Shown: piece after piece, positions 6,631 through 40,036 of the stretch
Layout of the letters: each line of letters opens with the position of its first letter
How positions within the stretch are numbered: the first letter of the stretch is position 1
Source: a virus
IMG/VR virus record: IMGVR_UViG_3300035180_002108
Location: 1 to 40,036 of that record
Length of the DNA stretch: 40,036 nucleotides
Direction: 5' to 3' (one strand)
Made by a program: the position numbers and the translations under genes
The notes under the pieces: model-generated
The model's input: the letters and a program-made list of their open reading frames with translations, nothing else
What the model was told of the DNA's origin: nothing
Databases searched by the model: none

Positions 6631-7326
6631 ATGGCTCCGACATCCCGCCCGACCCGTGTGATCGCCTACCTGCGCTGCTCCACCCCCGGTCAGGCCGAGG
6701 ACGGCATCAGCCTGGAGGTCCAGCGGGACCGGATCACGGCCTACGCGGCCCTCTACGGCCTCGACGTGGTGGGCTGGGAGCAGGACGCCGCCTCGGGCAA
6801 GGACCTCGGGCGGCGGGGCCTACGTCGTGCGCTTGAAGCGCTGGACGACGGCCGGGCCGAGGGTCTCGTGGTCGCCAAGCTCGATCGCCTCACGAGGTCG
6901 GTTCGAGACCTCGGCGACCTGATCTCCGATCACTTCGGCGGTGAGGAGGGCTCGGCCCTGTTCTCGGTCGCAGAGCAGATCGACACCCGCAGCGCCTCGG
7001 GCCGGATGGTCTTGAACATCCTCGTCACGGTGGGCCAGTGGGAAAGGGAGACCATCGTGGAGCGCACGACCGAGGCCATGGCCCTGAAGCGGGCCAACAA
7101 CGAACGCCTCGGGCGCAACGTCCCCTACGGCAAGGCGCTGGCCGAGGACGGCGTCCACCTTGTAGACGACCTCTGGGAGGCGTCGATCATCGCCAGGGCC
7201 AAGGCCCTCAAGGGCGAGGGCCTCGGCCTGCGACGCATCACCCAGCGCATCACGGAGGAGGGCTACACGACCCGCAAGGGGACGCCCTTCGCCACGACGC
7301 AGATCGCTCGGATGCTTGCCGACTAG
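6631..7326 (+). CDS. Small serine recombinase (resolvase/invertase type)
   Basis: 231 aa. N-terminal catalytic domain of the serine recombinase family: YLRCST with nucleophile S17, an EVQRDRITAYA helix, GLVVAKLDRLTRS and the long E helix beginning near RMVLNILVTVGQWERE. The C-terminal 70 aa (EASIIARAKALKGEGLGLRR, then KGTPFATTQIARML) look like the helix-turn-helix/start of a recombinase domain, so it is too short to be a full large integrase. It may resolve multimers, invert DNA or assist the large integrase. Convergent with the small minus-strand gene 7343-7636. Confidence 0.85.
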   Translation: MAPTSRPTRVIAYLRCSTPGQAEDGISLEVQRDRITAYAALYGLDVVGWEQDAASGKDLGRRGLRRALEALDDGRAEGLVVAKLDRLTRSVRDLGDLISDHFGGEEGSALFSVAEQIDTRSASGRMVLNILVTVGQWERETIVERTTEAMALKRANNERLGRNVPYGKALAEDGVHLVDDLWEASIIARAKALKGEGLGLRRITQRITEEGYTTRKGTPFATTQIARMLAD

Positions 7327-8752: not shown

Positions 8753-9091
8753 ATGAGCAACGAACATGGGGCGGAAGACGGGCCCGGCGGTGTACTAGCC
8801 GGAATGCCCGCCGGATCGATTGCAAGTCGCAAAAACCAATGCCCTGCTGAAGGCATGCACCGGATCCGTGGTCGAGCCTGCATCCACCTCGACGGGTCGA
8901 TCACGTTGCTCCACGCGGACGGCCTGATCGACATCCCCGCTGCCGATGTCGAGGCCGGTCGCCTGTCGGAGCCCTGGTTCTGGACGGCCCTTCGGCGCCT
9001 CGGGGTCTCCTACGGCGGGCCGAAGCAGCCCAACGCGGCGCACCGTGCCCGCATCGTCCAGGCGCTTGCCCGCCTGCTCGGAGGTGAGTGA
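8753..9091 (+). CDS. Hypothetical protein preceding the large integrase
   Basis: 112 aa, ATG 8753. Its stop TGA (9089-9091) overlaps the integrase ATG (TGATG), so the two are translationally coupled. Contains a strand-rich middle (IRGRACIHLDGSITLLHADG) and a C-terminal helix (AHRARIVQALARLLGGE). Coupling to an integrase suggests a helper such as a recombination directionality factor; this is inference from position only. Confidence 0.55.
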   Translation: MSNEHGAEDGPGGVLAGMPAGSIASRKNQCPAEGMHRIRGRACIHLDGSITLLHADGLIDIPAADVEAGRLSEPWFWTALRRLGVSYGGPKQPNAAHRARIVQALARLLGGE

Positions 9092-10695
9092 TGGCCCGCA
9101 GGAAGAAGGCGCCGGCCCCTGCCCCCCGGGTCGCACCGGAGGGCCCGCTCCGGTGCTTGATCTTCGCGCGCGTCTCCAGCCCCGATCAGCGCGACACCAA
9201 GACGATCGAGAGCCAGCTTCGGGAGCTACCCGAGTACGCGGCCCGCATGGGCTGGATCGTCGTCGGCATCGAGAAGGAGGACGGCGTCTCCGCCGTGTAC
9301 CTCACGTTGGCCGAGCGCGAGATCTTCAAGGCCGTCCTCCAGCGTGGTGAGAAGCACGACTACGACGTCCTCTTGGTGATCGACCTCGATCGCCTCACGA
9401 GGGCCGACGATCGGGTCGAGAGGGCCATCGTCTACGAGCGGCTCCGTCGTGCCGGGATCCTCCTCGCCACCCCGGCGGGCGGCGTCGTCGACCTCGACAA
9501 CCCCGAGAACGCGATGCTCGTGGGGCTCGTCTCCGAGTTCAACGCGTACGAGGCGAAGAAGATCAAGTCCCGGACCCAGCGCGGGAAGCGGCAGGCCAAG
9601 GAGGAAGGCCGTAGGCCGCCGAGCAAGAACCCCTACGGCCTGCGGTGGGTGACGCCGTCCGACGCGGCCCGGAAGTCGATCGGGCAGTTCGTCGAGGTCT
9701 CCGACGAGGCGGAGATCATCCGCCGCATCTACGTCCAGGCGATCGAGGACGGCATCGGGCAGATCGTCGACGACCTCGACCTCGAAGCGGTCCGTACCCG
9801 TGCGGGCTCCCGCTTCGCGGCATCGACGATCACCAAGCTCCTGCGCAGCCCCCTCTACAAGGGCGTGTTCCCAAACCACCCCAAGGTGAAGATCCCGGCC
9901 ATCGTTGACGCCGAGACGTGGGAGGCGGCGCAGAGGGCCATCACGTCGCGCCGGTCGGAGCGCGTGTGGCAGGGGCAGGCGAACTACCTCCTCGCGAACA
10001 TCCTCAAGTGCGGCGTCTGCGGGCGGGCGATGTGGACGTGCAACCCCCGGAGCACGGGTCACCACAAATACGCGTACTACCGCTGCTCGACGACGAACCA
10101 GTACAGGAAGATGGGGCTCGATGGCCCTTGCGGGCAACGTCACCACCGGGTCGACCCCCTCGATGCTGCCGTCTGGTCCCGGCTCGCGGACGTCCTCTCG
10201 GATCCGGTTCTTCTTCGTGAGGCATGCGAGGCGGTCCGCGAGGAGGGCGACCCGGGCATCGACTGGGAGAAGCGGGTCGCCGACTGCGACCGTAGGCTCG
10301 ACCAGCTCACCAAGTCCGTGGCCACGGTCCAGCGCCGCGAGCGTGCCGGGATGATCACCGAGGAGGAGGCGGAGACGACCCTCGACGAGATCGCCAAGGA
10401 GCGGAAGGCGACGGAGAACAACCGGAGGATCGCCACCTCGAACCTCGCCGACATGCAGGTCACCCGCCGGGCCCGGCGGACCATCGAGCAGCAGGCGTCC
10501 CGCCTCGCCGAACGGCTTCGTGACGCCACGTTCGCGGACCGCCGGCAGATCCTCCGGCTCGTGGTGGACCCCTCGGCGGGGGGCCGCCTCATCGTCCGCG
10601 CCGATGGGTCCGTAGAGATGTACGGCGCCATCCCGCTCTCTACGGACGAGGCTGCGGCGGCGTTCGCCCCCCTGGAGCTTCACTTCGGCACGTAG
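9091..10695 (+). CDS. int: Large serine integrase
   Basis: 534 aa from ATG 9091 (GGAGG 7 bases upstream; an alternative GTG 9088 is adjacent). Domains: basic N-terminus; resolvase catalytic domain with FARVSS (nucleophile S29) and VIDLDRLTR; recombinase domain (KNPYGLRW, TITKLLRSPLYKGVF); zinc ribbon with CGVC at 307-310 and partner cysteines to about 347; coiled coil about 385-450 and a C-terminal domain. This is the standard large serine integrase layout and length, so it should integrate the phage at a host attB site. attP cannot be placed from sequence alone. Confidence 0.9.
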   Translation: MARRKKAPAPAPRVAPEGPLRCLIFARVSSPDQRDTKTIESQLRELPEYAARMGWIVVGIEKEDGVSAVYLTLAEREIFKAVLQRGEKHDYDVLLVIDLDRLTRADDRVERAIVYERLRRAGILLATPAGGVVDLDNPENAMLVGLVSEFNAYEAKKIKSRTQRGKRQAKEEGRRPPSKNPYGLRWVTPSDAARKSIGQFVEVSDEAEIIRRIYVQAIEDGIGQIVDDLDLEAVRTRAGSRFAASTITKLLRSPLYKGVFPNHPKVKIPAIVDAETWEAAQRAITSRRSERVWQGQANYLLANILKCGVCGRAMWTCNPRSTGHHKYAYYRCSTTNQYRKMGLDGPCGQRHHRVDPLDAAVWSRLADVLSDPVLLREACEAVREEGDPGIDWEKRVADCDRRLDQLTKSVATVQRRERAGMITEEEAETTLDEIAKERKATENNRRIATSNLADMQVTRRARRTIEQQASRLAERLRDATFADRRQILRLVVDPSAGGRLIVRADGSVEMYGAIPLSTDEAAAAFAPLELHFGT

Positions 10696-10787
10696 CTTTC
10701 CCCTTGTTTTCCCGTGGTATGCGTTCGTTCCCATCCTCAGCAGGATCGCCTCCGTTGGCATACGGCGACGATCCGGGAGACATCCCG

Positions 10788-11642
10788 ATGCCCGCCCTCG
10801 CCCTGATCCTCGCCGTCGTCCTCGCCCTGTTCGGCTGCGGAAGCACCCCGACCCCCACCCAGGACGCCGACCGCTGCCCCCCGGCCTACGTCTGCGGTGA
10901 CGGCTGGAGCTTCCGTCCCCCGGTCCAGCCCCCGACCGTCCTCACCCGGACGACCGACCCCGAGACCGTCACCCTCAAGGGCATCGAGGTCGAGCAGGTC
11001 GCCTACGTCGGGTCGGTCGACGACTACCTCACGTCGTTGGACCCTGAGCACCGCCAGCTCGTCACGACCTCGAAGCGGACGTTTGCCGGGTACCCGGGCG
11101 GCATCGCAGCCCTGGTCGAGCCACTCCGCCGGTACGTCGTGCTCCACGACGGGCTGCTGCTCGTCGTGACGTTCGACGAGCACATGTTCGACTTCGCCAC
11201 GACGGAGACGGCGATCTCGACCCTCATGATCAAGCGGCCGTGCCCCCTGGCGTCGGTTCGGGGGCCGTCGTGGTGCCTCGTGGCGCCCCCCGGGCTGCAC
11301 GAGGTCCGTCGTGATGTCGTGCCCGAGAGGGTCGTCCTCGCGGCTCCCGACGACACGCTCGTCCTGGAGATCGACTCGGGGAGCTACGCCGGAACCCTGG
11401 ACGACTACCGGGGCCACCTCGACCCGACCCCGGGGATCCCGAGCTTCGGCTGGACCTACTCGTGGGAACCCACCCCGGTCTCGGGCACGCCCGGGTACCG
11501 CGTGACGATGCACGGCCCTGATGCGACCTGGGAGCGCTGGGTCGTCGTCACGGGCGGCAAGCTCGTGTTCGTGACGTACCTCGACGCGATCCCCACGGAG
11601 CAGATGCTGGCGTCGATCGTCACGCTGAAGATCGCACGATGA
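10788..11642 (+). CDS. Phage-encoded lipoprotein
   Basis: 284 aa from ATG 10788, with GGGAGA 8-9 bases upstream; this start yields a clean lipoprotein signal (MPALALILAVVLALFGC, lipidated C17), whereas the longer frame from 10704 would bury it. The mature protein has no Cys-rich repeats like the other lipoprotein and is strand-rich (AYVGSVDDYLTSLDPEHRQL, YVVLHDGLLLVVTFDEH). It directly follows the integrase, a common place for genes expressed from a prophage. Possible role: changing the host surface or blocking superinfection (inference). The next gene overlaps it by ATGA. Confidence 0.75.
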   Translation: MPALALILAVVLALFGCGSTPTPTQDADRCPPAYVCGDGWSFRPPVQPPTVLTRTTDPETVTLKGIEVEQVAYVGSVDDYLTSLDPEHRQLVTTSKRTFAGYPGGIAALVEPLRRYVVLHDGLLLVVTFDEHMFDFATTETAISTLMIKRPCPLASVRGPSWCLVAPPGLHEVRRDVVPERVVLAAPDDTLVLEIDSGSYAGTLDDYRGHLDPTPGIPSFGWTYSWEPTPVSGTPGYRVTMHGPDATWERWVVVTGGKLVFVTYLDAIPTEQMLASIVTLKIAR

Positions 11643-11830
11643 GCCCCGAGGCGGCGATCGAGGTCGCGGCGGCCCTCGCAACGGCGGGCACCCGTCATCG
11701 GCTCGACGAGGTCCGGGTGCGGATCGCCCGGCACTACCTCCGGCGGATGCCGGCGATCCACCGGCTCCCTGCCGAGGACCTCGTGCACCGGCTGCTGCTG
11801 GAGACCGGCCTGGGGGCCGTCGCCCGGTGA
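11639..11830 (+). CDS. Small hypothetical protein
   Basis: 63 aa; ATG overlaps the lipoprotein stop (ATGA) and its own stop overlaps the next GTG. Helical, basic in the middle (RLDEVRVRIARHYLRRM). Part of a chain of four tiny coupled genes between 11639 and 12391. Function unknown. Confidence 0.6.
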   Translation: MSPEAAIEVAAALATAGTRHRLDEVRVRIARHYLRRMPAIHRLPAEDLVHRLLLETGLGAVAR

Positions 11831-12036
11831 GCGCCTACCCCCGCGAGGGCATGACGTTCACGATCACGGTGACGGGTGAGCGCGATGCCGGACGCCGGTG
11901 CAGCTTCGAGATCGACTGGCACGACGGCAAGAGGCCCCGGGGCCAGTGCTACTTCGCAGACCCCGACCTCCACGCCCGACGGCTTCGGGCGGACGGGCAC
12001 GTGGTGGTCTTCGGTGTACCGACGCCGTCACGATGA
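11827..12036 (+). CDS. Small hypothetical protein
   Basis: 69 aa, GTG start overlapping the preceding stop (GTGA). Strand-rich: TFTITVTGE, RCSFEIDWHD, RRLRADGHVVVFGV. Could be a small beta-barrel or DNA-binding fold, but there is no clear motif. Its stop overlaps the ATG of 12033-12200. Confidence 0.6.
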   Translation: MSAYPREGMTFTITVTGERDAGRRCSFEIDWHDGKRPRGQCYFADPDLHARRLRADGHVVVFGVPTPSR

Positions 12037-12200
12037 CGGACCTCACCATCGCCATCCACGAGACCAAGCCCGCGGCCGACGAGGCCGACGCCGTCGATCG
12101 GTACCTCGCTGGGAGCCGCGACCCCCAAGACGAGGCGGCCTTCGACGCCTACCTGTTCTCGATCCTCGACGTGTACGCCGACCCGGAGGCCGCAACGTGA
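12033..12200 (+). CDS. Small acidic protein
   Basis: 55 aa, ATG 12033 overlapping the stop of the gene before (ATGA). Strongly acidic (ADEADAVDRYLAG, DEAAFDAYLFSILDVY). Its stop overlaps the GTG of the next gene. Acidic tiny proteins in phage operons are sometimes anti-host factors, but nothing here shows a target. Confidence 0.6.
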   Translation: MTDLTIAIHETKPAADEADAVDRYLAGSRDPQDEAAFDAYLFSILDVYADPEAAT

Positions 12201-12391
12201 GCGACCCCCGCAACAAGTCGAAGCGCACCATGTACTTCCCCCCGGAGATGCTCGAAGCGATCGAGGCCGAGGCCGCTCGCCTCGATCGTTCCTTCTCGTG
12301 GGTCGTGCAGCGTGCGTGGATGTTCGCGCAGGAACACGTGCAGAGCATCCCCGGCGCGGGCGACCCTGCGTTGGGCGAGGAGGATCGTTAG
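12197..12391 (+). CDS. TIGR04563-like small ribbon-helix-helix-type protein
   Basis: 64 aa, GTG start overlapping the preceding stop. KRTMYFPPEMLEAIEAEAAR followed by LDRSFSWVVQRAW matches, from memory, the TIGR04563 family, small proteins known mainly from Myxococcota, with the shape of ribbon-helix-helix DNA-binding proteins (short strand, then two helices). It may be a transcription regulator of the phage or a host-derived regulator. It is the best single clue to the host. The stop is followed at once by the start-associated element of the late region. Confidence 0.7.
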   Translation: MSDPRNKSKRTMYFPPEMLEAIEAEAARLDRSFSWVVQRAWMFAQEHVQSIPGAGDPALGEEDR

Positions 12392-12409
12392 ATCCTCTTG
12401 TCGTCGCGC
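12392..12409 (+). promoter_or_regulatory. Start-associated element, copy 2
   Basis: ATCCTCTTGTCGTCGCGC, immediately after the stop of 12197-12391; its TTG is 21 bases upstream of ATG 12419. First copy of the late region. Confidence 0.6.
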
Positions 12410-12418
12410 ATCTACGAG

Positions 12419-12712
12419 ATGCCGCCGACGCCTGCACCCGCTCCCTCCCCGCCCTACCCGCTGCACCCCGTCCCGGACGCCGACCCCATCGAGGATCTGC
12501 GGGCCGAGGTCGGCGTGCACTTCGACCACCTGCACGCACGGATCGATCGGGTCGAGGAGCGCCAGGGCGCCAACCTCGATCTTGCCGTCGAGGCGATCAA
12601 GACGGCGAACGCCACGCAGTCGAAGAAGACCGCGGCGTGGGTGTCGATCGGCACGGCCCTCATCACGACCCTGGGCGCGATCGTCGTCGCCTACTTCAAG
12701 GTGAGGGGCTGA
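12419..12712 (+). CDS. XhlA/holin-like membrane protein
   Basis: 97 aa. Pro-rich N-terminus, a central amphipathic helix (IEDLRAEVGVHFDHLHARID, continuing RVEERQGANLDLAVEAIK) and one C-terminal membrane segment (AAWVSIGTALITTLGAIVVA) with a basic tail. That order matches XhlA-type holin-associated proteins. It could start lysis, or be a membrane component for another purpose; no endolysin is found nearby. An in-frame TTG at 12398 lies inside the start-associated element and is not likely to be used. Its stop overlaps the small terminase ATG (TGATG). Confidence 0.6.
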   Translation: MPPTPAPAPSPPYPLHPVPDADPIEDLRAEVGVHFDHLHARIDRVEERQGANLDLAVEAIKTANATQSKKTAAWVSIGTALITTLGAIVVAYFKVRG

Positions 12713-13359
12713 TGGCCGGCATCCCTGGACGTGCCCCCGGTAGCCCCGGCAGCACCCACACGAAGCCCATGGAGCCGATGAAGCCGCTCGGTGAGGAGCG
12801 TGAGGTCGGTGACGAGGAGCTGGCCGTCGCGGCAAAGCGCAAGGGCGGCGGCAACAAGATCAGCCCGAACCTCGAACCGATCGTGCTCGAAATGATGCGC
12901 GACGGGTACAGCACGACCGCGATCAGCAACAGGCTCGCCGACGAGCACAAGCTGAACGTGCACCCTGCCACGGTCCGCACGTTCCTCCGCCGCCACCGGG
13001 AAATTAGGGCCCAGGCCGTCGAGGAGGCGATCGCCCAGGCCGTCGCGAAGGATGCGACCGCCGACCTCACCAGGCTGGCGAAGGTCACGGCGCAGCTCGA
13101 AGAGGCGATGGAGTTCCACTACGTCCGGCCTCGTTTCTGGATCAAGCTCGTCGAGCAGTACCGCAAGGTTCTCGACACCAAGCTGCGCTTCACCATCCGC
13201 GGCACGCCGCTCCCCGCAGAAGAAGCCGCGCAGGTCGAGCAGGACCTCAAGAGCGTCCTGGAAGCCAAGCTCGATTCGCTCCCGGTCACGCCGGCCCCCG
13301 CGAACGAAGACGACGACGATCCCGACGACGACACCGGCGATCCGGACGACGCCGCGTAG
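12712..13359 (+). CDS. Probable small terminase subunit
   Basis: 215 aa, ATG 12712 with GAGGGG 6-11 bases upstream. After a Pro/Gly-rich N-terminus there is a clear HTH region (LEMMRDGYSTTAISNRLADE, then HPATVRTFLRRHREIRAQAV), a long helical middle and a very acidic C-terminal tail (EDDDDPDDDTGDPDDAA). HTH plus oligomerising helices immediately before the large terminase fits a small terminase subunit that recognises the packaging site. Sequence family not identified. Confidence 0.7.
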   Translation: MAGIPGRAPGSPGSTHTKPMEPMKPLGEEREVGDEELAVAAKRKGGGNKISPNLEPIVLEMMRDGYSTTAISNRLADEHKLNVHPATVRTFLRRHREIRAQAVEEAIAQAVAKDATADLTRLAKVTAQLEEAMEFHYVRPRFWIKLVEQYRKVLDTKLRFTIRGTPLPAEEAAQVEQDLKSVLEAKLDSLPVTPAPANEDDDDPDDDTGDPDDAA

Positions 13360-13385: not shown

Positions 13386-14720
13386 GTGTCGTCTCGGATC
13401 CCCATCGAGCTGATCGATCGAGTGCGTCGTCTCTCACCAGACGCACGGCGAGCACTCGTACGTGAGCTTCCGGCCGCCCTGGTCGAGGAGCTGCTCTACG
13501 ACTGGAGGCTCACGGCCCGTCCCGAGCAGCTCCCGCCCGATGGGGGTTGGCGGACGTGGCTCTACTTGGCGGGCCGCGGTGCCGGCAAGACGGCGAGCGG
13601 CGCCGGGTGGGTCCGTTCGATCGTGGAGGACGGCTCGGCCCGCATGATCGGGCTCTGCGCCCCGACGATCGCGGACGTCCGCGACATCATCATCAAGGGC
13701 CCCTCCGGCATCCTCAACGCCTTCCCGCCGTCGCAGAGGCCGACGTACCTTCCGTCGAAGCGGCGGATCGAGTTCAGGAACGGTGCCGTGGCCGTGTGCC
13801 TCACGGCCGAGGAGGCCGACTGCCCCCGCGGGCACAACCTCGACGCCGTCTGGTGCGACGAGTTGGCGATGTACCCCAACGGGGGCGACGAAATCTGGTC
13901 GAACCTCCAGCTCGCCCTGCGTGCCGGCCCTCATCCCCGAACGTACGTCTCGACGACCCCGAGGCCGACGAACCTCATCAAGCGGCTCGTGACCGCCGCG
14001 ACCGACGTGAAGTCCGGCACGGTGATCACGCGCGGCAAGACCTTCGACAACAAGGCCAACCTCCCGGCCTCGTTCCTGGAAGCGATCGAACGCGAGTACC
14101 GGGGCACCCGGCTCTGGCGGCAGGAGATCGAGGGCCTCGTGCTCGACGACATCCTGGGCGCGCTCTGGCGCCTCAAGGAGGACATCCACGAGCGCAGGGT
14201 CACCCAGGCCCCGCAGCTCGTACGGATCGTCATCGGCGTCGACCCCGCCGTCACCCAGAACGAGGACAGCGACCTCACCGGGATCATCGTGTGCGGCATC
14301 GACGAGAAGCGGCACGGGTACGTCCTGGAGGACCTCTCGGGCCGCTACTCCCCCGTCGAATGGGCCCGGAAGGTCGTCGACGCCTTCCATCGGTGGCGTG
14401 CCGACCGTGTGATCGTCGAGCGCAACCAGGGCGGCGACCTCGTGACGCAGAACCTCCGGGCCGTCTCGGGGTTCCTTCCGATCACGACGATCCACGCGTC
14501 GAAGGGGAAGTTCTCCAGGGCCGAGCCCGTGGCGACCCTCTACCAGCGCGGCCACGTGCACCACGTGGGGGTCCACGACGAGCTTGAGCTGGAGATGACG
14601 GGCTACAGCCCGCAGGTCGCCCGCAAGAGCCCCGACCGGATGGATGCCCTCGTATATAGCTTGACCGACCTGATGCTGGGCGGCGTGACGACGCGTGACC
14701 TCGGGGGTTACGTCGCGTGA
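13386..14720 (+). CDS. terL: Large terminase subunit
   Basis: 444 aa, GTG start. ATPase: Walker A GRGAGKT (63-69), Walker B AVWCDE (154-159), coupling motif STTPRP (189-194). Nuclease: GVDPA with D286, RVIVERN with E345, and KSPDRMDALVYS with D420, the acidic triad of the RNase H-like fold. The motor cuts and pumps DNA into the prohead through the portal. Full length for the family. Its stop abuts the stop of the minus-strand gene 14721-15038. Confidence 0.95.
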   Translation: MSSRIPIELIDRVRRLSPDARRALVRELPAALVEELLYDWRLTARPEQLPPDGGWRTWLYLAGRGAGKTASGAGWVRSIVEDGSARMIGLCAPTIADVRDIIIKGPSGILNAFPPSQRPTYLPSKRRIEFRNGAVAVCLTAEEADCPRGHNLDAVWCDELAMYPNGGDEIWSNLQLALRAGPHPRTYVSTTPRPTNLIKRLVTAATDVKSGTVITRGKTFDNKANLPASFLEAIEREYRGTRLWRQEIEGLVLDDILGALWRLKEDIHERRVTQAPQLVRIVIGVDPAVTQNEDSDLTGIIVCGIDEKRHGYVLEDLSGRYSPVEWARKVVDAFHRWRADRVIVERNQGGDLVTQNLRAVSGFLPITTIHASKGKFSRAEPVATLYQRGHVHHVGVHDELELEMTGYSPQVARKSPDRMDALVYSLTDLMLGGVTTRDLGGYVA

Positions 14721-15109: not shown

Positions 15110-16732
15110 GTGGGCATCCCGTACAAGGTCATTTCCGCGCCGTCCCCCGAGTACCGGGGCGACATCTACTGCGAGCTGCGGACTCTCTACAGCGGCGGAT
15201 ACGAGGTCGAGGCCAACGCAGCCCGGTTCCTCCCTCGCGCCGTCAACGAGCCGCAGATGCGGTACCAAGAGCGGCTCCGGAGCTGCGGGTACATCAACTA
15301 CCTCGCGGAGATCACCGACAGCTTCGTCTCGGAGGTGTTCACCAGCCCGCTGGCCCTGCTCCCTGCGGCAGACGCCGACGACGCCTCGACCCCCGGCACG
15401 CTCCCGTCGGATGAGGGCTACTATCGGGCGCTCCAGGCCGATGCCGACCTTACCGGGACGGCCCTCTCGACGTGCCTGCAACGGCAGCTCACCGAGGCCC
15501 TGGTCCTCGGTCGCAGCTACCTGCTCGTGGACTTCCCAGCCCTCGATGGCCAGCCGGTGCCGGCCACCCTCTTGGAGGAGGACGCCCTCGGGGCGTCGCG
15601 CGCGTACTGCGTCCAGCTCCCGACCGACGCCCTCATCTCCTGGCGCAAGGACGACCACGACGCCTTCATCTGGGCGATCGTGAAGAAGGTCGTGCCGGTG
15701 CGTGAAGGGCCCTTCGACCCGCCCGGCATGATCCGGGAGGAGTTCAAGGTCTGGGTGCGTGAGGAGAGCGGGCTCGTGACCTGGAAGGTCTTCGCCACGC
15801 CGCCTCACCCCGTGAGCAAGCCGCCGAAGCCGAACGACGACGTCCCCCTGGTCGAGGAGGGCACGACGTCGTTCGACTCGATCCCGGTGCTGGAGCTGGT
15901 CGTGCCGCCAGGTCTCTGGGTCGGCAACAAGATCGGCCCCCTCGTCCGCGAGCACTACCAGCGCCGATCGGCTCTGGTCTCGGCGCAGAACAAGAGCCTC
16001 TTCGCCCTGCCGGTTGCGTACCTGGGGCCGGAGATGTCGGCGTCCGGCGACGCCCTCCCGGCCGAGGTGCAGCAGAACCCCAACAGGGTCGGCAACGGCC
16101 CGGCGGCCTCGATGAAGGCGTCCGGGTTCATGGTGATGGGCAAGGACGACAAGATCGCCTTCGAGGAGCCGAGTGGGCAGAGCTACGAGATCGTCGCGAC
16201 GCAGCTCAAGGAACTCGTGGACGAGGTGCACCGCACGGTGAGCCAGATGGCCGCCTCCGTATCCTCCACCGCCAACGCGGTCGGCAGGTCGGGGGACTCC
16301 AAGGCGCTCGACCGGGCCTCGACGGAGATCGTCGTCGATGCCCTCGCCGGGCTCGTGAAGGGCTACGCGAAGAAGGTGTTCGACTTCGTTTCCCGTGCAC
16401 GTGGGGAGTCGATCGTCTGGCAGGCCGTGGGGCTCGATCGCACCGACTACCCGGACCGGGCCCAGCTCCTCCAGGAGGCGCTCGCCGTCGAGTCGATCCC
16501 GATCCCGAGCCCGACGTTCATCAAGACCTACAAGACCAAGCTCGCCTTGGCGTTGATCCCCAAGATCGACCCGATGACGTCGAACGTCATCCGGGACGAG
16601 ATCTCCGACGCGATCGACGCGATGCCGGATCCCCACCCCGAGCCCGATGGCGACGAGAAGCCCGACGACAAGGACGAGAAGAAGCCGGAGGACGGCAACC
16701 CCAAGGGCAAGGCAGACGTCGGGGGTGAGTGA
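15110..16732 (+). CDS. Portal protein
   Basis: 540 aa, GTG start. N-terminal region (YCELRTLYSGGYEVEANAAR, RYQERLRSCGYINYLAEITD) and position between terminase and MuF-like gene fit a portal of the DUF4055/SPP1-like kind. The long helix-rich C-terminal half (QLKELVDEVHRTVSQMAASV) resembles the stem and wing, and the acidic C-terminal tail (EPDGDEKPDDKDEKKPEDG) is common in portals. Forms the dodecameric ring for DNA entry. TGATG overlap with the next gene. Confidence 0.85.
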   Translation: MGIPYKVISAPSPEYRGDIYCELRTLYSGGYEVEANAARFLPRAVNEPQMRYQERLRSCGYINYLAEITDSFVSEVFTSPLALLPAADADDASTPGTLPSDEGYYRALQADADLTGTALSTCLQRQLTEALVLGRSYLLVDFPALDGQPVPATLLEEDALGASRAYCVQLPTDALISWRKDDHDAFIWAIVKKVVPVREGPFDPPGMIREEFKVWVREESGLVTWKVFATPPHPVSKPPKPNDDVPLVEEGTTSFDSIPVLELVVPPGLWVGNKIGPLVREHYQRRSALVSAQNKSLFALPVAYLGPEMSASGDALPAEVQQNPNRVGNGPAASMKASGFMVMGKDDKIAFEEPSGQSYEIVATQLKELVDEVHRTVSQMAASVSSTANAVGRSGDSKALDRASTEIVVDALAGLVKGYAKKVFDFVSRARGESIVWQAVGLDRTDYPDRAQLLQEALAVESIPIPSPTFIKTYKTKLALALIPKIDPMTSNVIRDEISDAIDAMPDPHPEPDGDEKPDDKDEKKPEDGNPKGKADVGGE

Positions 16733-18083: not shown

Positions 18084-19121
18084 ATGGCACTCTCGAACCT
18101 CGCGACCTTCGCAAACGCACTCTCGCAGCTCTACGCGCCCGACATCCAGGCGCAGTACAACCGTCAGGCCGTCACCACGAGCCTGCTTCCCGTGCGCCCC
18201 GGGCGCGGCAAGAACGTCGCGTGGGACGTGACGTTCAGCAACGCGGCTGCTGCGTCGTACGCAGAAGGCGCCGACGTCGCGTCGGGCGAGTACACGACCG
18301 ACAAGAAGATCCCGGCCTCGCTCTCTTGGGGTCTCTACCGCGCCGCCTTCCAGCTCTCGGAGACCGCCGTGGACGCAGCCGCGTCCTCGATGGGTACGCC
18401 CGAGGAGCTGATGGACCTCGTGGGAGACGCCCTCACGGACGTGAGCCGCAAGCTCATCTCGGTGATCAACAACGACGTGATCAACGGCACCGGCGTCGAC
18501 GGGTCGTCGAACCCCACGTTCGTCGGGCTGCTCGGCGGCTCGCTCGCGGCCTCGGGTACGTACGCAGGCATCGCGCGTGCGACCTACGCCGAATGGGCCG
18601 GCAACGTGCTAGCTAACGGCGGCACCCCGCGTGCCCTCACCGTCGACCTCATGGATAACCTCGACCAGGTCATCTACGCGGCGGCCGGCTACAAGTACGA
18701 CCTGATCCTTTGCGATCCGCGCACGTTCAGGAAGTACAAGGGCCTGTTCCAGTCGAGCGTCGTGCAGCAGATCGTCCCCGGCGGGCCGGTCTCGGCGTAC
18801 GGCATCGGCAGCGACACCCTCACGTACAACGACGTGAGGATCATCCGCGACAAGGACATCCCCGCGGGCAACATGCTCTTCCTCAGCTCGCAGGATCTGG
18901 AGATCCAGTTCCTCCCGTTCGCGGGCGCCGGTGACGGCGTTCTCTCGCGCGAGATGAGCGGCGAGGGCAGCAACGGCAAGGGCTCGACCCCCACGGGCGT
19001 TCCCTTCCGCGTCGTGCCGCTCGCGAAGACCGGCGACAGCTACAAGTTCCTGCTCCGCGCACAGGCGCAGCTCAAGGTGAAGCGCCCGAACGCGTTCGGG
19101 ATCATCACCGACCTGAGCTGA
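18084..19121 (+). CDS. Major capsid protein (HK97 fold)
   Basis: 345 aa, ATG 18084, weak Shine-Dalgarno (CAGGTAA). The N-terminal arm (LSQLYAPDIQAQYNRQAV), E-loop/P-domain segments and the DLILCDPRTFRKYKG region fit an HK97-type capsid protein; follows the scaffold. Two stem-loops follow, so this is probably the most strongly expressed gene of its unit. Confidence 0.85.
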   Translation: MALSNLATFANALSQLYAPDIQAQYNRQAVTTSLLPVRPGRGKNVAWDVTFSNAAAASYAEGADVASGEYTTDKKIPASLSWGLYRAAFQLSETAVDAAASSMGTPEELMDLVGDALTDVSRKLISVINNDVINGTGVDGSSNPTFVGLLGGSLAASGTYAGIARATYAEWAGNVLANGGTPRALTVDLMDNLDQVIYAAAGYKYDLILCDPRTFRKYKGLFQSSVVQQIVPGGPVSAYGIGSDTLTYNDVRIIRDKDIPAGNMLFLSSQDLEIQFLPFAGAGDGVLSREMSGEGSNGKGSTPTGVPFRVVPLAKTGDSYKFLLRAQAQLKVKRPNAFGIITDLS

Positions 19122-21664: not shown

Positions 21665-21877
21665 ATGACTCCCCCGCTCAAGGTCCGAGCCACGGGCTCG
21701 AACCTCGTCCCCGTCTACGAGGCGCTCAACGCCAACCCCCGCCGCTTCGTCGGCCGTCGGTTCGATCCCGCGACCTCGCAGTGGATCGCCGACGGCGTGG
21801 CCGAGGTGCCGGACAACCATGAATACAGGGCAGCGATCGCCGTTGGTGACCTCGCGCTCGTCGAGGAGGCCGTCTGA
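21665..21877 (+). CDS. Mu gp38-like (DUF2635-type) small tail protein
   Basis: 70 aa from ATG 21665 (GTG 21662 adjacent). A short protein directly before the sheath gene with LKVRATGSNLVPVYEALNAN and RFVGRRFDPATSQWIADGVA, resembling the short DUF2635 protein that precedes the sheath in Mu-like phages. Stop overlaps the sheath ATG. Confidence 0.65.
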   Translation: MTPPLKVRATGSNLVPVYEALNANPRRFVGRRFDPATSQWIADGVAEVPDNHEYRAAIAVGDLALVEEAV

Positions 21878-23376
21878 TGGCCGAGATCAACGTCACGGGC
21901 CTCGCGGCCACCGATCCGATCCCCGGGCTCTACGAAGAGGTGAACTTCGCGGCGGGGTCGGCCAACGCCGGCACGTCCTCGAAGCAGGCGATCCTCTTGG
22001 GGAACAAGCTCTCCACGGGGTCGGCGACGGTCGAGACCGTCTACGGGCCGTCCGACTTCAGCACCGAAGCCGACGTCATCGGCCTGTTCGGCAGCGGTTC
22101 CGAGCTGCACATGCAGTGGGTCCGTTTCGTCTTCGTGAACAAGGTCACGCCGCTCTACATGATCGCCGTCGCGGAATCCGCGGGTGCTCAGGCGACCGGC
22201 ACGATCACCATCACGGGTACGGCGAGCGCCAACGGCGCCATCCGCGTCTGGGTTGGGGATCGCTCGATGGACGTCTCCGTCACCTCGGGTGACCTCCAGA
22301 CGGCGATCGCCACGAACATCGCCGCTGCGGTCAACACGCAGTCGAAGTGGCCCGTCACGGCCTCGGTCGCGACCAACGTGGTGACGATCACGGCACGCCA
22401 GAAGGGTCCGAGGGGCAACTCCCTCCGCATCTCCGCCCAGGCGATCGGCTCGTTCACCACGACGGTGAGCCCGACGATCCCCACGGCCCTCACGGGCGGC
22501 ACCACGGCGGACGTGGCGACCAACGCCCTCGCGGCCATCACCGCCAAGCGCTTCTACTACCAGGCGCTTGCGTTCGAGGACGCGACGAACATCGGCCTCG
22601 TCGTCACGCAGGCGACCGCGAACGCAGCCCCGACGATCGGCATCCGCCAGAGGGTCTTCGCGGGTGCGAACGACACGACGGGCTCGTCTGCGATCACGCT
22701 GGCAACCGGCGTGAACATGAACGCCGTGAGGGCCGAGCTGGTGTGGCAGGCCGACAGCGACCTCACCCCGGCCGAGATCGCCGCGCACATGGCGGGCATC
22801 TACGCCCTCTACGAGGCGCAGCCCCGTCCGCGCCTGAACTTCAACTTCTACGGCGACGCCTCGTCGGAGTCGTGGGCCATCCGTGCGCCCCGCAAGGGCA
22901 CGGCCCCTACCCGCCCGCAGATCCTCGCGGCCCTCCAGAACGGCGTCACGCCGATCGCAAGCCGTAGCAACGGCTCCGCCTACCTGGTGAAGCGCATCAC
23001 GTCCCGGAGCCTCAACGGGGCGACCCAGGACTACAGGATCCGCGACAGCCACAAGGTCACGGTGATGGACAATTACGCAGACGATCTCGCTGCGAAGGTT
23101 GCCCCGCTCCTCGTGGACGCGGCCATCGGCGACGACCCCGGGCCGAACGACCTACCGGCACCCGGCGTCGTCACGCCCCGGCAGATCAAGGCCGCCGCGA
23201 GCCAGCTCGTGGGCGTCTACGACGACAACGGCCTCGTGCAGAACGCCGCCGTGATCAAGGCGTCCATCGTCGTGCAGCGGTCCCTCGTGGCCCGCACCCG
23301 CATGACCGGCCGCATCCCCATCCAGACCATCGACGTGCTCGATCAGGTCGGCCTCGAACTGGACCAGGTGGCGTGA
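21877..23376 (+). CDS. Tail sheath protein (Mu gpL-like)
   Basis: 499 aa, ATG 21877, with GAGGAGG upstream. N-terminal VTGLAATDPIPGLYEEVNFA and NAGTSSKQAILLGNK, and C-terminal LVARTRMTGRIPIQTIDVLD, match Mu-type sheath proteins. A sheath gene shows that the tail is contractile. Confidence 0.9.
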   Translation: MAEINVTGLAATDPIPGLYEEVNFAAGSANAGTSSKQAILLGNKLSTGSATVETVYGPSDFSTEADVIGLFGSGSELHMQWVRFVFVNKVTPLYMIAVAESAGAQATGTITITGTASANGAIRVWVGDRSMDVSVTSGDLQTAIATNIAAAVNTQSKWPVTASVATNVVTITARQKGPRGNSLRISAQAIGSFTTTVSPTIPTALTGGTTADVATNALAAITAKRFYYQALAFEDATNIGLVVTQATANAAPTIGIRQRVFAGANDTTGSSAITLATGVNMNAVRAELVWQADSDLTPAEIAAHMAGIYALYEAQPRPRLNFNFYGDASSESWAIRAPRKGTAPTRPQILAALQNGVTPIASRSNGSAYLVKRITSRSLNGATQDYRIRDSHKVTVMDNYADDLAAKVAPLLVDAAIGDDPGPNDLPAPGVVTPRQIKAAASQLVGVYDDNGLVQNAAVIKASIVVQRSLVARTRMTGRIPIQTIDVLDQVGLELDQVA

Positions 23377-30733: not shown

Positions 30734-31207
30734 ATGAGCACCCCCACCCTCGGCGCCGGTCTCGCTCCTGCTGGTCTCAGCCCGGCAGGCTTCGGCACGC
30801 CCGCCACGGGCGACGCCGTGGCCCCCGGCACGCCCCTGCGGCAGGCCGACGGCACCGGCGGCCAGTCCCGCTACATCGACGCCAAGACCCGCGACTACGC
30901 GGTCAACGGTGAGGGCCGTCTCCAGGGGATCGGCGGCGTGCAGGGGCGCGTGCAGCTCGCCCTCACGACGACGCTCGGGAGCAGCATCCTCCAGACGCTC
31001 GGGCTCACCGCCTGGCCGGGGGTCATCACCGACGCCATCACCGAACAGGTGGGGGACGCCGTTCGCCGGGCCCTGAAGAAGCTCACCGACGCGGGCGAGG
31101 TCTCGATCGCCGCCATCGAGGTCACGAGGCCGACCGCTAATCGTCTCGTCACGCGGGTGAGATGGACGGACCTCACGACCGGGGCCGACCACACGAGCAC
31201 CCTCTGA
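30734..31207 (+). CDS. Baseplate wedge protein (Mu gp46 / gp25-like)
   Basis: 157 aa, ATG 30734, overlapping the previous stop by position only (1 base spacing). Gly/Pro-rich N-terminus, then DYAVNGEGRLQGIGGVQGRV and TEQVGDAVRRALKKLTDAGE with VTRVRWTDLTTG, the layout of gp25-like wedge proteins. TGATG overlap with gpJ-like gene. Confidence 0.75.
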   Translation: MSTPTLGAGLAPAGLSPAGFGTPATGDAVAPGTPLRQADGTGGQSRYIDAKTRDYAVNGEGRLQGIGGVQGRVQLALTTTLGSSILQTLGLTAWPGVITDAITEQVGDAVRRALKKLTDAGEVSIAAIEVTRPTANRLVTRVRWTDLTTGADHTSTL

Positions 31208-32697
31208 TGGCCGAGAACATCCCGTACAAGTCCGCCGAGGATTCCCGTGATGACGTCCTCCGGACGATCCGCAACGGCCTGATCTCCCGTGGGGTCGCGA
31301 ACCCCGACGTGGGCGACGGCTCCGACTACTACCTCACGGCCTCGGGACTCGGCGTCGAGCTGGAATCCCTGAGGGCTGCTGCCGTCGGCAACGCCGAGGC
31401 GGGCATGGACGACAGCGCCACGGGCGAGGACCTCGATCGCCGCCTCGCCCTCCGGGGCATGAAGCGCCGCCCTGCCGGAGCCTCGAACGGCCCGATCATC
31501 TTCACCACCTCGACGCCGACCCTCGTGGCGACCGGGGCCCAGCTCAAGAGCCCCTCCGGCGTCACGGTCTACGTGACGGTCGGCGGCACCTACTCGAACG
31601 GGGCCCAGATCCCCGTGCAGAGCCTCTCGACCGGCACGGGGGCGAACCTCACGGCGGGCACGAGCCTGCGATGGCTCTCCCCGCCCGCCTACGCCTCCAG
31701 CACGGCCGTCGTCGCCTCCCCGGGCATCACCGGCGGGGTCGATGTCGAGGACGACGAGACGGCCCGTGCACGGCTCCTGGACCGCATCGCCAACCCTCCC
31801 GGGGGCGGCAACGCCTCGCAGATCGCCTCGTGGGCCGAGCGGGTGCCCGAGATCCAGAAGGCGTTCCCCTACCCCGCCTGCAACGGGCCGAGCACCGTTC
31901 ATGTGGCCCTCGTCGCCTACGCCACGGCGACGCCCGGCCGCACGCGGGTGATCTCGGACGCCGGGCTTGCTGCTGCGACCGCCGAGATCGTTGGAGAGCT
32001 ACCCGAGTTCGCGGAAGTCGTCGTCACCAAGGTGCAGGAGGTCCCGGCGGACGCCGGGTTCTCCATCGTGATCCCCTCGGCGGTCGGCACGTCCTCGACC
32101 GGGAACGGCTGGCTCGATGCGGCCCCCTGGCCAACCCCCAAGACGACCACGGTGAGCATCTCCAGCGGCGTCTGCGCCGTCACGACCGTCACGAACACGA
32201 CGGCGATCACGGCGCAGGCTGCGGCCCTCCCGGTCTCGACGTCGGGGTTCTCGATCGCCTGGGTGAGCCCCACGGATTTCAGCCTGCGGACGGCGAAGGT
32301 TCTGAGCTGGACCAGCTCCGGCACCGGCCCCTTCCTCGTGTCGCTCGTCCTCGACACGCCCTTCGTGGGGATCACCACGGGGTGCGTGATCTTCCCGGCG
32401 GCGGTGAACACGAGCATCTACGTGGCGTCGGTGCTGGCCTCGTTCGCGAGCCTGGGCCCGGGCGAGAAGACGAACGCCGCGGGCGTGCTCCCGAGGGCCC
32501 TGCGGCGCCCCTACGCCTACCAGAGCTGGCCCTCGACTCTTGGGGCCTCGTTCCTCAAGGCGCTCGTCGACAGCAGCACGGAGGTGCTCGACGCCTCGTG
32601 GCTCTCGCCCGCCCCGATGATGCCGTACCCGACCCTGATTTCTCAGGCCCCGTACATCTACGTCCCGAGGAACATCGGGCTCTACCAGGTGCAGTGA
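31207..32697 (+). CDS. Baseplate J-like protein (Mu gp47-like)
   Basis: 496 aa, ATG 31207. N-terminal helical region (SAEDSRDDVLRTIRNGLISR), GEDLDRRLALRGMKRRPAGA and DDETARARLLDRIANPPGGG NASQI are the classical signature of the baseplate J/gp47 family. Forms the wedge with the gp46-like and gp48-like proteins. Confidence 0.9.
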   Translation: MAENIPYKSAEDSRDDVLRTIRNGLISRGVANPDVGDGSDYYLTASGLGVELESLRAAAVGNAEAGMDDSATGEDLDRRLALRGMKRRPAGASNGPIIFTTSTPTLVATGAQLKSPSGVTVYVTVGGTYSNGAQIPVQSLSTGTGANLTAGTSLRWLSPPAYASSTAVVASPGITGGVDVEDDETARARLLDRIANPPGGGNASQIASWAERVPEIQKAFPYPACNGPSTVHVALVAYATATPGRTRVISDAGLAAATAEIVGELPEFAEVVVTKVQEVPADAGFSIVIPSAVGTSSTGNGWLDAAPWPTPKTTTVSISSGVCAVTTVTNTTAITAQAAALPVSTSGFSIAWVSPTDFSLRTAKVLSWTSSGTGPFLVSLVLDTPFVGITTGCVIFPAAVNTSIYVASVLASFASLGPGEKTNAAGVLPRALRRPYAYQSWPSTLGASFLKALVDSSTEVLDASWLSPAPMMPYPTLISQAPYIYVPRNIGLYQVQ

Positions 32698-39791: not shown

Positions 39792-40036
39792 CTACTGGTT
39801 CGAGTAGGTCTGCGTCATCGGGGAGAAGTCCGTCGCGGGACGCTCGACGCCCAAGAACGTCGTGTATCCAGTCGAGAAGGGGAATGTCCCAGTCCCCTTC
39901 GTGCACATTCCCGTCGCGGTGTTGACCGAGTAGTAGTCAACCACGGCAGTCTCCGTGAGCGTGAAGACCCTAGTTCGGTACACCCCACAAGTCGAACCGA
40001 GTTCCTGGAAGTAGCCCACCCCTGCGCCGACAGGCG
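39792..40036 (-). CDS. Secreted Cys-containing lipoprotein, C-terminal part (same gene as 1-606)
   Basis: This is the 3' end of the lipoprotein that starts at base 606; bases 39855-40036 repeat bases 1-182, so the reading frame is continuous in the circular molecule. It ends at TAG (39792-39794) just after the stop of the rightward gene 39516-39788, with which it converges. The segment contains further Cys residues (STCGVYRTR, GMCTKGTG) and ends in a Ser/Thr-rich tail (FSPMTQTYSNQ). As a separate 75-aa frame it would be an artefact of where the circle was cut. Confidence 0.75.
   Translation of the reverse strand, partial: PVGAGVGYFQELGSTCGVYRTRVFTLTETAVVDYYSVNTATGMCTKGTGTFPFSTGYTTFLGVERPATDFSPMTQTYSNQ
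39855..40036. repeat. Terminal direct repeat, right copy
   Basis: Second copy of bases 1-182, one mismatch (39909). The unique genome length is therefore 39,854 bases. Confidence 0.9.

Follow-up and report, generated by a model that had tools for sequence, protein, structure and literature searches.

A CdbA-family ribbon-helix-helix protein encoded by a temperate contractile phage with a probable myxobacterial host

What is encoded by the short open reading frame (ORF) that lies just before the packaging genes of this virus, and what could a phage gain from it? The window, that is, the whole stretch of DNA analysed here, is an IMG/VR virus record of 40,036 nucleotides, and the ORF occupies positions 12197-12391 of its + strand. 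It starts with GTG, ends with TAG and encodes a protein of 64 amino acids (VSDPRNKSKRTMYFPPEMLEAIEAEAARLDRSFSWVVQRAWMFAQEHVQSIPGAGDPALGEEDR) carrying YFPPEMLEAIEAEAARLDRS and FSWVVQRAW. The initial annotation had described the product as TIGR04563-like, and a profile search confirmed this with a score of 71.1 bits (E 5e-20). The score exceeds the curated NCBIfam cut-off of 65 bits, so that the family match is not a chance one. It is the only TIGR04563 match in the 40-kb record, and the codon-position GC content of the gene (0.67/0.47/0.86) resembles that of the adjacent genes. When a profile built from 14 TIGR04563 members was searched against PDB sequences, a single protein was matched, CdbA of Myxococcus xanthus (6SBW, E 2e-32), and TIGR04563 can be equated with the CdbA family at this level of comparison. 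The AlphaFold model of the phage protein has a mean pLDDT of 76.8, with core blocks at 84-97, and a pTM of 0.56; as a monomer it has two helices (16-29 and 33-48), placed as in CdbA, and no assigned strand. Foldseek searches with this model ranked the CdbA chains 6sbx_A, 6sbx_C and 6sbw first to third in the PDB (probability 1.00, E 1.4e-3 to 3.3e-3, 52-54% identity over 48-52 columns), with Arc and CopG following at ranks 4 and 8. By sequence membership, we assign the ORF as a phage-encoded CdbA paralogue.

CdbA of M. xanthus (MXAN_4361) is an abundant nucleoid-associated protein (NAP) of the ribbon-helix-helix (RHH) fold and a c-di-GMP receptor with solved structures (6SBW/6SBX), which bends DNA and binds it with moderate specificity, its site being a GC-rich direct repeat whose two copies stand 4 bp apart (PMC7156744). 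Its loss is lethal and its depletion changes transcription only slightly (PMC7156744). It was also reported as the first RHH protein with a ligand bound through the RHH domain (PMC7156744, PMC10313047). Mapped onto CdbA numbering with a one-residue offset, the phage protein retains K6, K8, Y12, R27, D29, R30, S31 and W34. Three of the four residues required for binding DNA and c-di-GMP are thereby kept (K8, R27 and R30), whereas S10 is conservatively replaced by threonine. Alanine variants of CdbA at the K8/S10 and R27/R30 pairs lose both DNA and c-di-GMP binding, and S10 was reported to be 100% conserved among CdbA homologues (PMC7156744). The substitution falls in the β-strand KRTMYFP (12221-12241, + strand; K8-P14 of CdbA), where K9, T11 and Y13 lie on the predicted DNA/c-di-GMP face, and it is accompanied by Q9R and L11M. 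All 46 other compared sequences read K-Q-S-L-Y in this strand, followed by F, I or L and then P, and the Q9R/S10T/L11M combination occurs in none of them; DNA or c-di-GMP binding may therefore be altered. The tail involved in tetramer formation differs from that of CdbA as well (F50I, V53A, N54G, V56P). The phage protein likely still binds DNA, and the changed strand and tail suggest a shift in DNA preference or specificity, in oligomerisation or tetramer packing, or in the response to c-di-GMP.

The record carries a 182-nt terminal direct repeat (1-182 and 39855-40036, with one C/T mismatch at position 55), indicating a circular or complete genome. Downstream of the CdbA-like gene, on the + strand, lie a gene for a holin-like protein with weak similarity to XhlA (12398-12712; phrog_7090 8e-5, PF10779 below cut-off), a probable small terminase (12712-13359), so called for its position before the large terminase and a weak HTH_32 match, and the large terminase itself (13386-14720, Terminase_6N/6C). 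These are followed by the portal (15110-16732), the capsid (18084-19121), the tail sheath (21877-23376, + strand; phrog_165 2.8e-58), which is our main host marker, and baseplate J (31162-32697). Upstream, a large serine integrase is encoded at 9088-10695 (+ strand; phrog_95 E 5e-84, with Resolvase, Recombinase and Zn_ribbon_recom Pfam domains). Judged by gene content, the record represents a contractile phage that is temperate on account of this integrase, in agreement with what had been supposed beforehand. A second serine recombinase of 231 amino acids (6631-7326, + strand) has a resolvase domain and only a partial recombinase domain, and could be a truncated integrase remnant or a small invertase. 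Megablast of the first 25 kb of the window against INPHARED gave no matches.

The CdbA-like gene is preceded by a series of closely packed genes on the same strand. The first is a 112-aa ORF (8753-9091) overlapping the integrase start. After the integrase come a predicted lipoprotein with the lipobox ...ALFGC (10704-11642; no Pfam match) and three small ORFs (11639-11830, 11827-12036 and 12033-12200), each of which starts within the end of the preceding gene, the series leading into the CdbA-like gene. The three small ORFs gave no family matches in NCBIfam and Pfam profile searches. Since the gene ends overlap or nearly touch from 8753-9091 up to the CdbA-like gene, a single operon is likely, and the layout makes the CdbA-like gene the likely last member of this predicted integrase operon. 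A hairpin with the stem GAGGATC-GTTA-GATCCTC (12372-12412, + strand) spans its stop codon and separates the gene from the late genes. At -20.1 kcal/mol (z -3.9) it is more stable than all 200 shuffled sequences, and it resembles a terminator, though its U-tract is poor. The first copy of a repeated element, CTCTTGTCGCC (consensus GATCCTCTTGTCGCCGCGC), begins inside this hairpin. Copies are present on the + strand at 12395, 13362, 23759, 24478, 28269, 33863, 34844 and 38586, mostly directly behind the stop codon of the preceding gene. The element stands ~21-24 nt 5' of the start codon at 7 of the 28 late starts, against ~2% of random positions, and may serve as a late promoter or, in place of a Shine-Dalgarno sequence, as a signal for translation initiation.

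Several lines of evidence bear on the host. TIGR04563 scored above its cut-off in 92 of the 237 sampled Myxococcota genomes and in none of the 14 control genomes that formed the negative set. The best 80 of 489 GTDB loci bear titles that are either myxobacterial or ambiguous ('Deltaproteobacteria/Proteobacteria/bacterium'). Two contractile prophages, one in Polyangium sp. 15x6 (G006:C198:170000-197000; L111, L112) and one in G311 (C27; L128, L129), are collinear with the window from the terminase to the baseplate/fibre region with ~17 proteins each, so that the late module is the same gene for gene. We know of no description of these prophages. Both genomes fall in the order of G005, Polyangiales, which holds Polyangium. 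The window sheath is 49-50% identical to the two prophage sheaths (50% for that of Polyangium), compared with 27% for the best INPHARED phage. A tyrosine integrase gene, and not one for a serine integrase as in the window, marks the border of the Polyangium prophage, with a host-type HIT-domain gene beyond. Also unlike the window, both prophages lack the repeated element, and their terminase gene is not preceded by a CdbA-like gene. At the DNA level, segment 12213-12329 is 79% identical to the chromosomal cdbA of G002, whereas the best structural-gene matches reach 67-68%; the closest relatives of the phage cdbA are those of G002 and G005 (79-81% over 95-117 nt). Tetranucleotide usage of the window is, phages aside, nearest to that of L044, L030, L038 and L032. 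No CdbA homologue has been reported outside Myxococcales (PMC7156744).

Taken together, the distribution of TIGR04563, the syntenic prophages, sheath identity, tetranucleotide usage and cdbA similarity place the host in Myxococcota with high probability and in Polyangiales with good probability; it is very probably a Polyangium-like myxobacterium. By the shared late module, the phage is assigned to a group lysogenising such bacteria, and a phage group of which few members have been described gains a candidate host (Polyangiales). The myxobacterial host suggested in the initial annotation is supported by the protein family and, independently of the gene, by the two prophages from the order of Polyangium. 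Its second argument, a lipoprotein gene across the contig ends, held in part: a DUF7481-like lipoprotein gene does span the record ends, but it is weak evidence for the host, being just above the cut-off (26.9 bits versus 26.1) and matched in 3 of 141 Myxococcota genomes. The large terminase was abandoned as a host marker in favour of the sheath, because its best relatives are from phages of Microcystis, Brevundimonas, Roseobacter and others, and several Myxococcota matches came without further synteny. Spacer-like DNA matches (32-41 nt at 88-94%) were discounted as chance background of GC-rich genomes.

The window is not the only viral record with such a gene. A pattern scan of IMG/VR yielded 23 loci, and 20 records were retested with TIGR04563. 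The cut-off was passed by 19 of the 20, one of which (L021) is a fragment of the same phage, leaving 18 others. Most of these homologues (the L006-L027 set) keep KQSLYFP and score 75-112 bits; they belong to the same family as the window copy, but mostly to other types of phages. We regard the virus nature as firm for G404, G405, G406, G397 and G409, and as uncertain for the 363-529-kb records and some others. The records G404 (L018), G405 (L019) and G406 (L020), of 194-200 kb, encode gp23 capsids (E 1e-70 or better), and in all three the CdbA gene is 51-54 kb away from gp23. They probably represent a jumbo-phage lineage infecting myxobacteria. In G397 there are genes for a Mu-type portal (6.5e-49) and for a sheath that shares 45% identity with that of the window; the CdbA domain of this phage immediately precedes the packaging genes, an arrangement also seen in the window. 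This domain is the last part of a long open frame (L140:2557-4239) whose HTH-like matches are weak, and which may be an HTH-CdbA fusion or a chance read-through in DNA of 71% GC. In G409, which has a sheath gene, the CdbA gene (L136:10880-11041) is flanked on one side by a GH108 endolysin gene and on the other by holin/spanin-like ORFs, that is, it is inside a predicted lysis cassette. By such structural genes (capsid, portal or sheath), CdbA homologues can be placed in no fewer than three additional phage lineages, with sizes of ~34 to 200 kb. In a tree of phage and other copies (58 columns), one inner branch is well supported and the phage copies are ungrouped. It can be said that they do not clearly form one clade, and that a single origin is compatible with this poorly resolved tree, which is too poor for captures to be counted. 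Searches of INPHARED by tblastn with the phage protein or a myxobacterial CdbA gave no match, those of plasmids gave only noise at E >= 1, and no report of a phage-encoded CdbA was found in the literature searched.

What, then, might the protein do? Our preferred reading, in which we place about even confidence, is that the phage CdbA paralogue acts in a NAP-like manner on host and phage DNA. The protein would be made together with the integrase operon, dimerise or tetramerise, and bend GC-rich DNA with moderate specificity. It would act in trans on the host chromosome and on phage DNA, either alone or in mixed oligomers with the host CdbA, like CdbB of M. xanthus. The likely gain for the phage would be control over the state of the host nucleoid at establishment or induction. 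The recurrence of homologues in unrelated phages and the 51-54 kb spacing to gp23 in the three ~200-kb records argue for a maintained function. Evidence to the contrary includes S10T, the diverged tetramer tail, the scores of the model (pLDDT 76.8, pTM 0.56) and the nearest syntenic prophages, which do without the gene.

One possible consequence of NAP-like action concerns cell death, and the two readings overlap. The lethality of CdbA loss is mediated by CsdK1/CsdK2 together with CdbS, a PilZ protein, and resembles regulated cell death; the role of this pathway was termed an open question by its discoverers, who think that it is not antiphage (PMC10313047). By analogy with M. xanthus, the phage protein could replace or reinforce the host CdbA, so that csdK1/csdK2 would be repressed, CdbS would remain low and the infected or lysogenic cell would not kill itself. 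A weakened release by c-di-GMP would possibly help to keep csdK1/csdK2 repressed. We consider this account rather unlikely, and the same holds for a related form, in which host c-di-GMP, read through the CdbA-like protein, would guide the phage's choice of lysis or lysogeny.

The initial annotation had proposed that the protein could be the late regulator, which would bind CTCTTGTCGCC and switch the late genes on. As had been claimed, the gene is immediately followed by the first copy of the element, and the frequency of the element at late starts is well above that at random positions. Further, the two related prophages with no such gene at the equivalent position have no element either, and the G397 homologue likewise just precedes the packaging genes. 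However, the element was not found upstream of the late starts of G397 in spite of its CdbA gene, nor is the GC-rich direct repeat with the 4-bp gap bound by CdbA visible in the element (PMC7156744). Depletion of CdbA barely alters transcription (PMC7156744), the phage gene belongs to the upstream operon with a hairpin between it and the late genes, and the related prophages, which share the late module, do without the gene. The constant spacing between element and start codon equally fits a translation or leader signal or a promoter. Regulation of the late genes thus found no support and we deem it improbable.

The position at the end of an overlapping run that contains the integrase, and the DNA bending by CdbA (PMC7156744), would also accord with an architectural role in the integrase operon, in which the protein would bend DNA to assist or direct integration or excision. 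Against this, the G409 gene is away from any integrase in the stretch read, and the att sites of the phage were not identified. To our knowledge, large serine integrases generally require no host bending factor, and there is little likelihood, in our judgement, that this is the role of the protein. It is quite improbable that the gene is a captured host gene drifting as a passenger with no selected role: its long branch and altered conserved positions would fit, but neither the core residues nor the open frame have been lost, and homologues persist across several unrelated phage lineages, at a roughly constant location in one. There is a very slight chance that, like many small RHH proteins, it is the antitoxin of a toxin-antitoxin pair, to which the fold and a BrnA-antitoxin match far below cut-off point, since the adjacent ORFs match no toxin family (NCBIfam, Pfam) and the chromosomal homologues at the loci viewed have no conserved toxin partner; with no partner gene in the phage or in these chromosomes, we rejected this role.

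With CdbA genes present in several phage lineages, the cell-death pathway of CdbA becomes testable from the phage side. Three questions come within reach: do phages interfere with the organisation of the nucleoid or with c-di-GMP signalling in myxobacteria, has the CdbS pathway a bearing on infection, and is CdbA usable as a marker for the hosts of uncultured jumbo phages? Should protection through CdbS prove true, the death pathway would gain a part in phage infection.

Among known systems, the Arc and CopG repressors of phages and plasmids share the RHH fold and the reading of DNA through a β-sheet with the CdbA family. They differ in that the phage protein has no sequence-level family match above cut-off (Pfam RHH_1, PF01402: 16.6 bits versus a gathering cut-off of 20.5), and CdbA binds DNA more weakly and broadly than they do. 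CdbA of M. xanthus has the same family and fold as the phage protein, with ~48% identity over the RHH core, but the phage copy is phage-borne, belongs to a predicted integrase operon and has an altered strand and tetramer tail. Chromosomal copies vary in arrangement: an Archangium genome has a tandem cdbA-cdbB-like pair (L082:5989-6404), as does M. xanthus, and Polyangiaceae copies appeared single at the loci viewed. The M. xanthus paralogue CdbB (MXAN_4362) is non-essential, interacts with CdbA and can stand in for it in part (PMC7156744). Unlike the phage copy, it is chromosomal, adjoins cdbA and is 86 aa long; as an extra CdbA paralogue too, it is a model for what a second copy can do.
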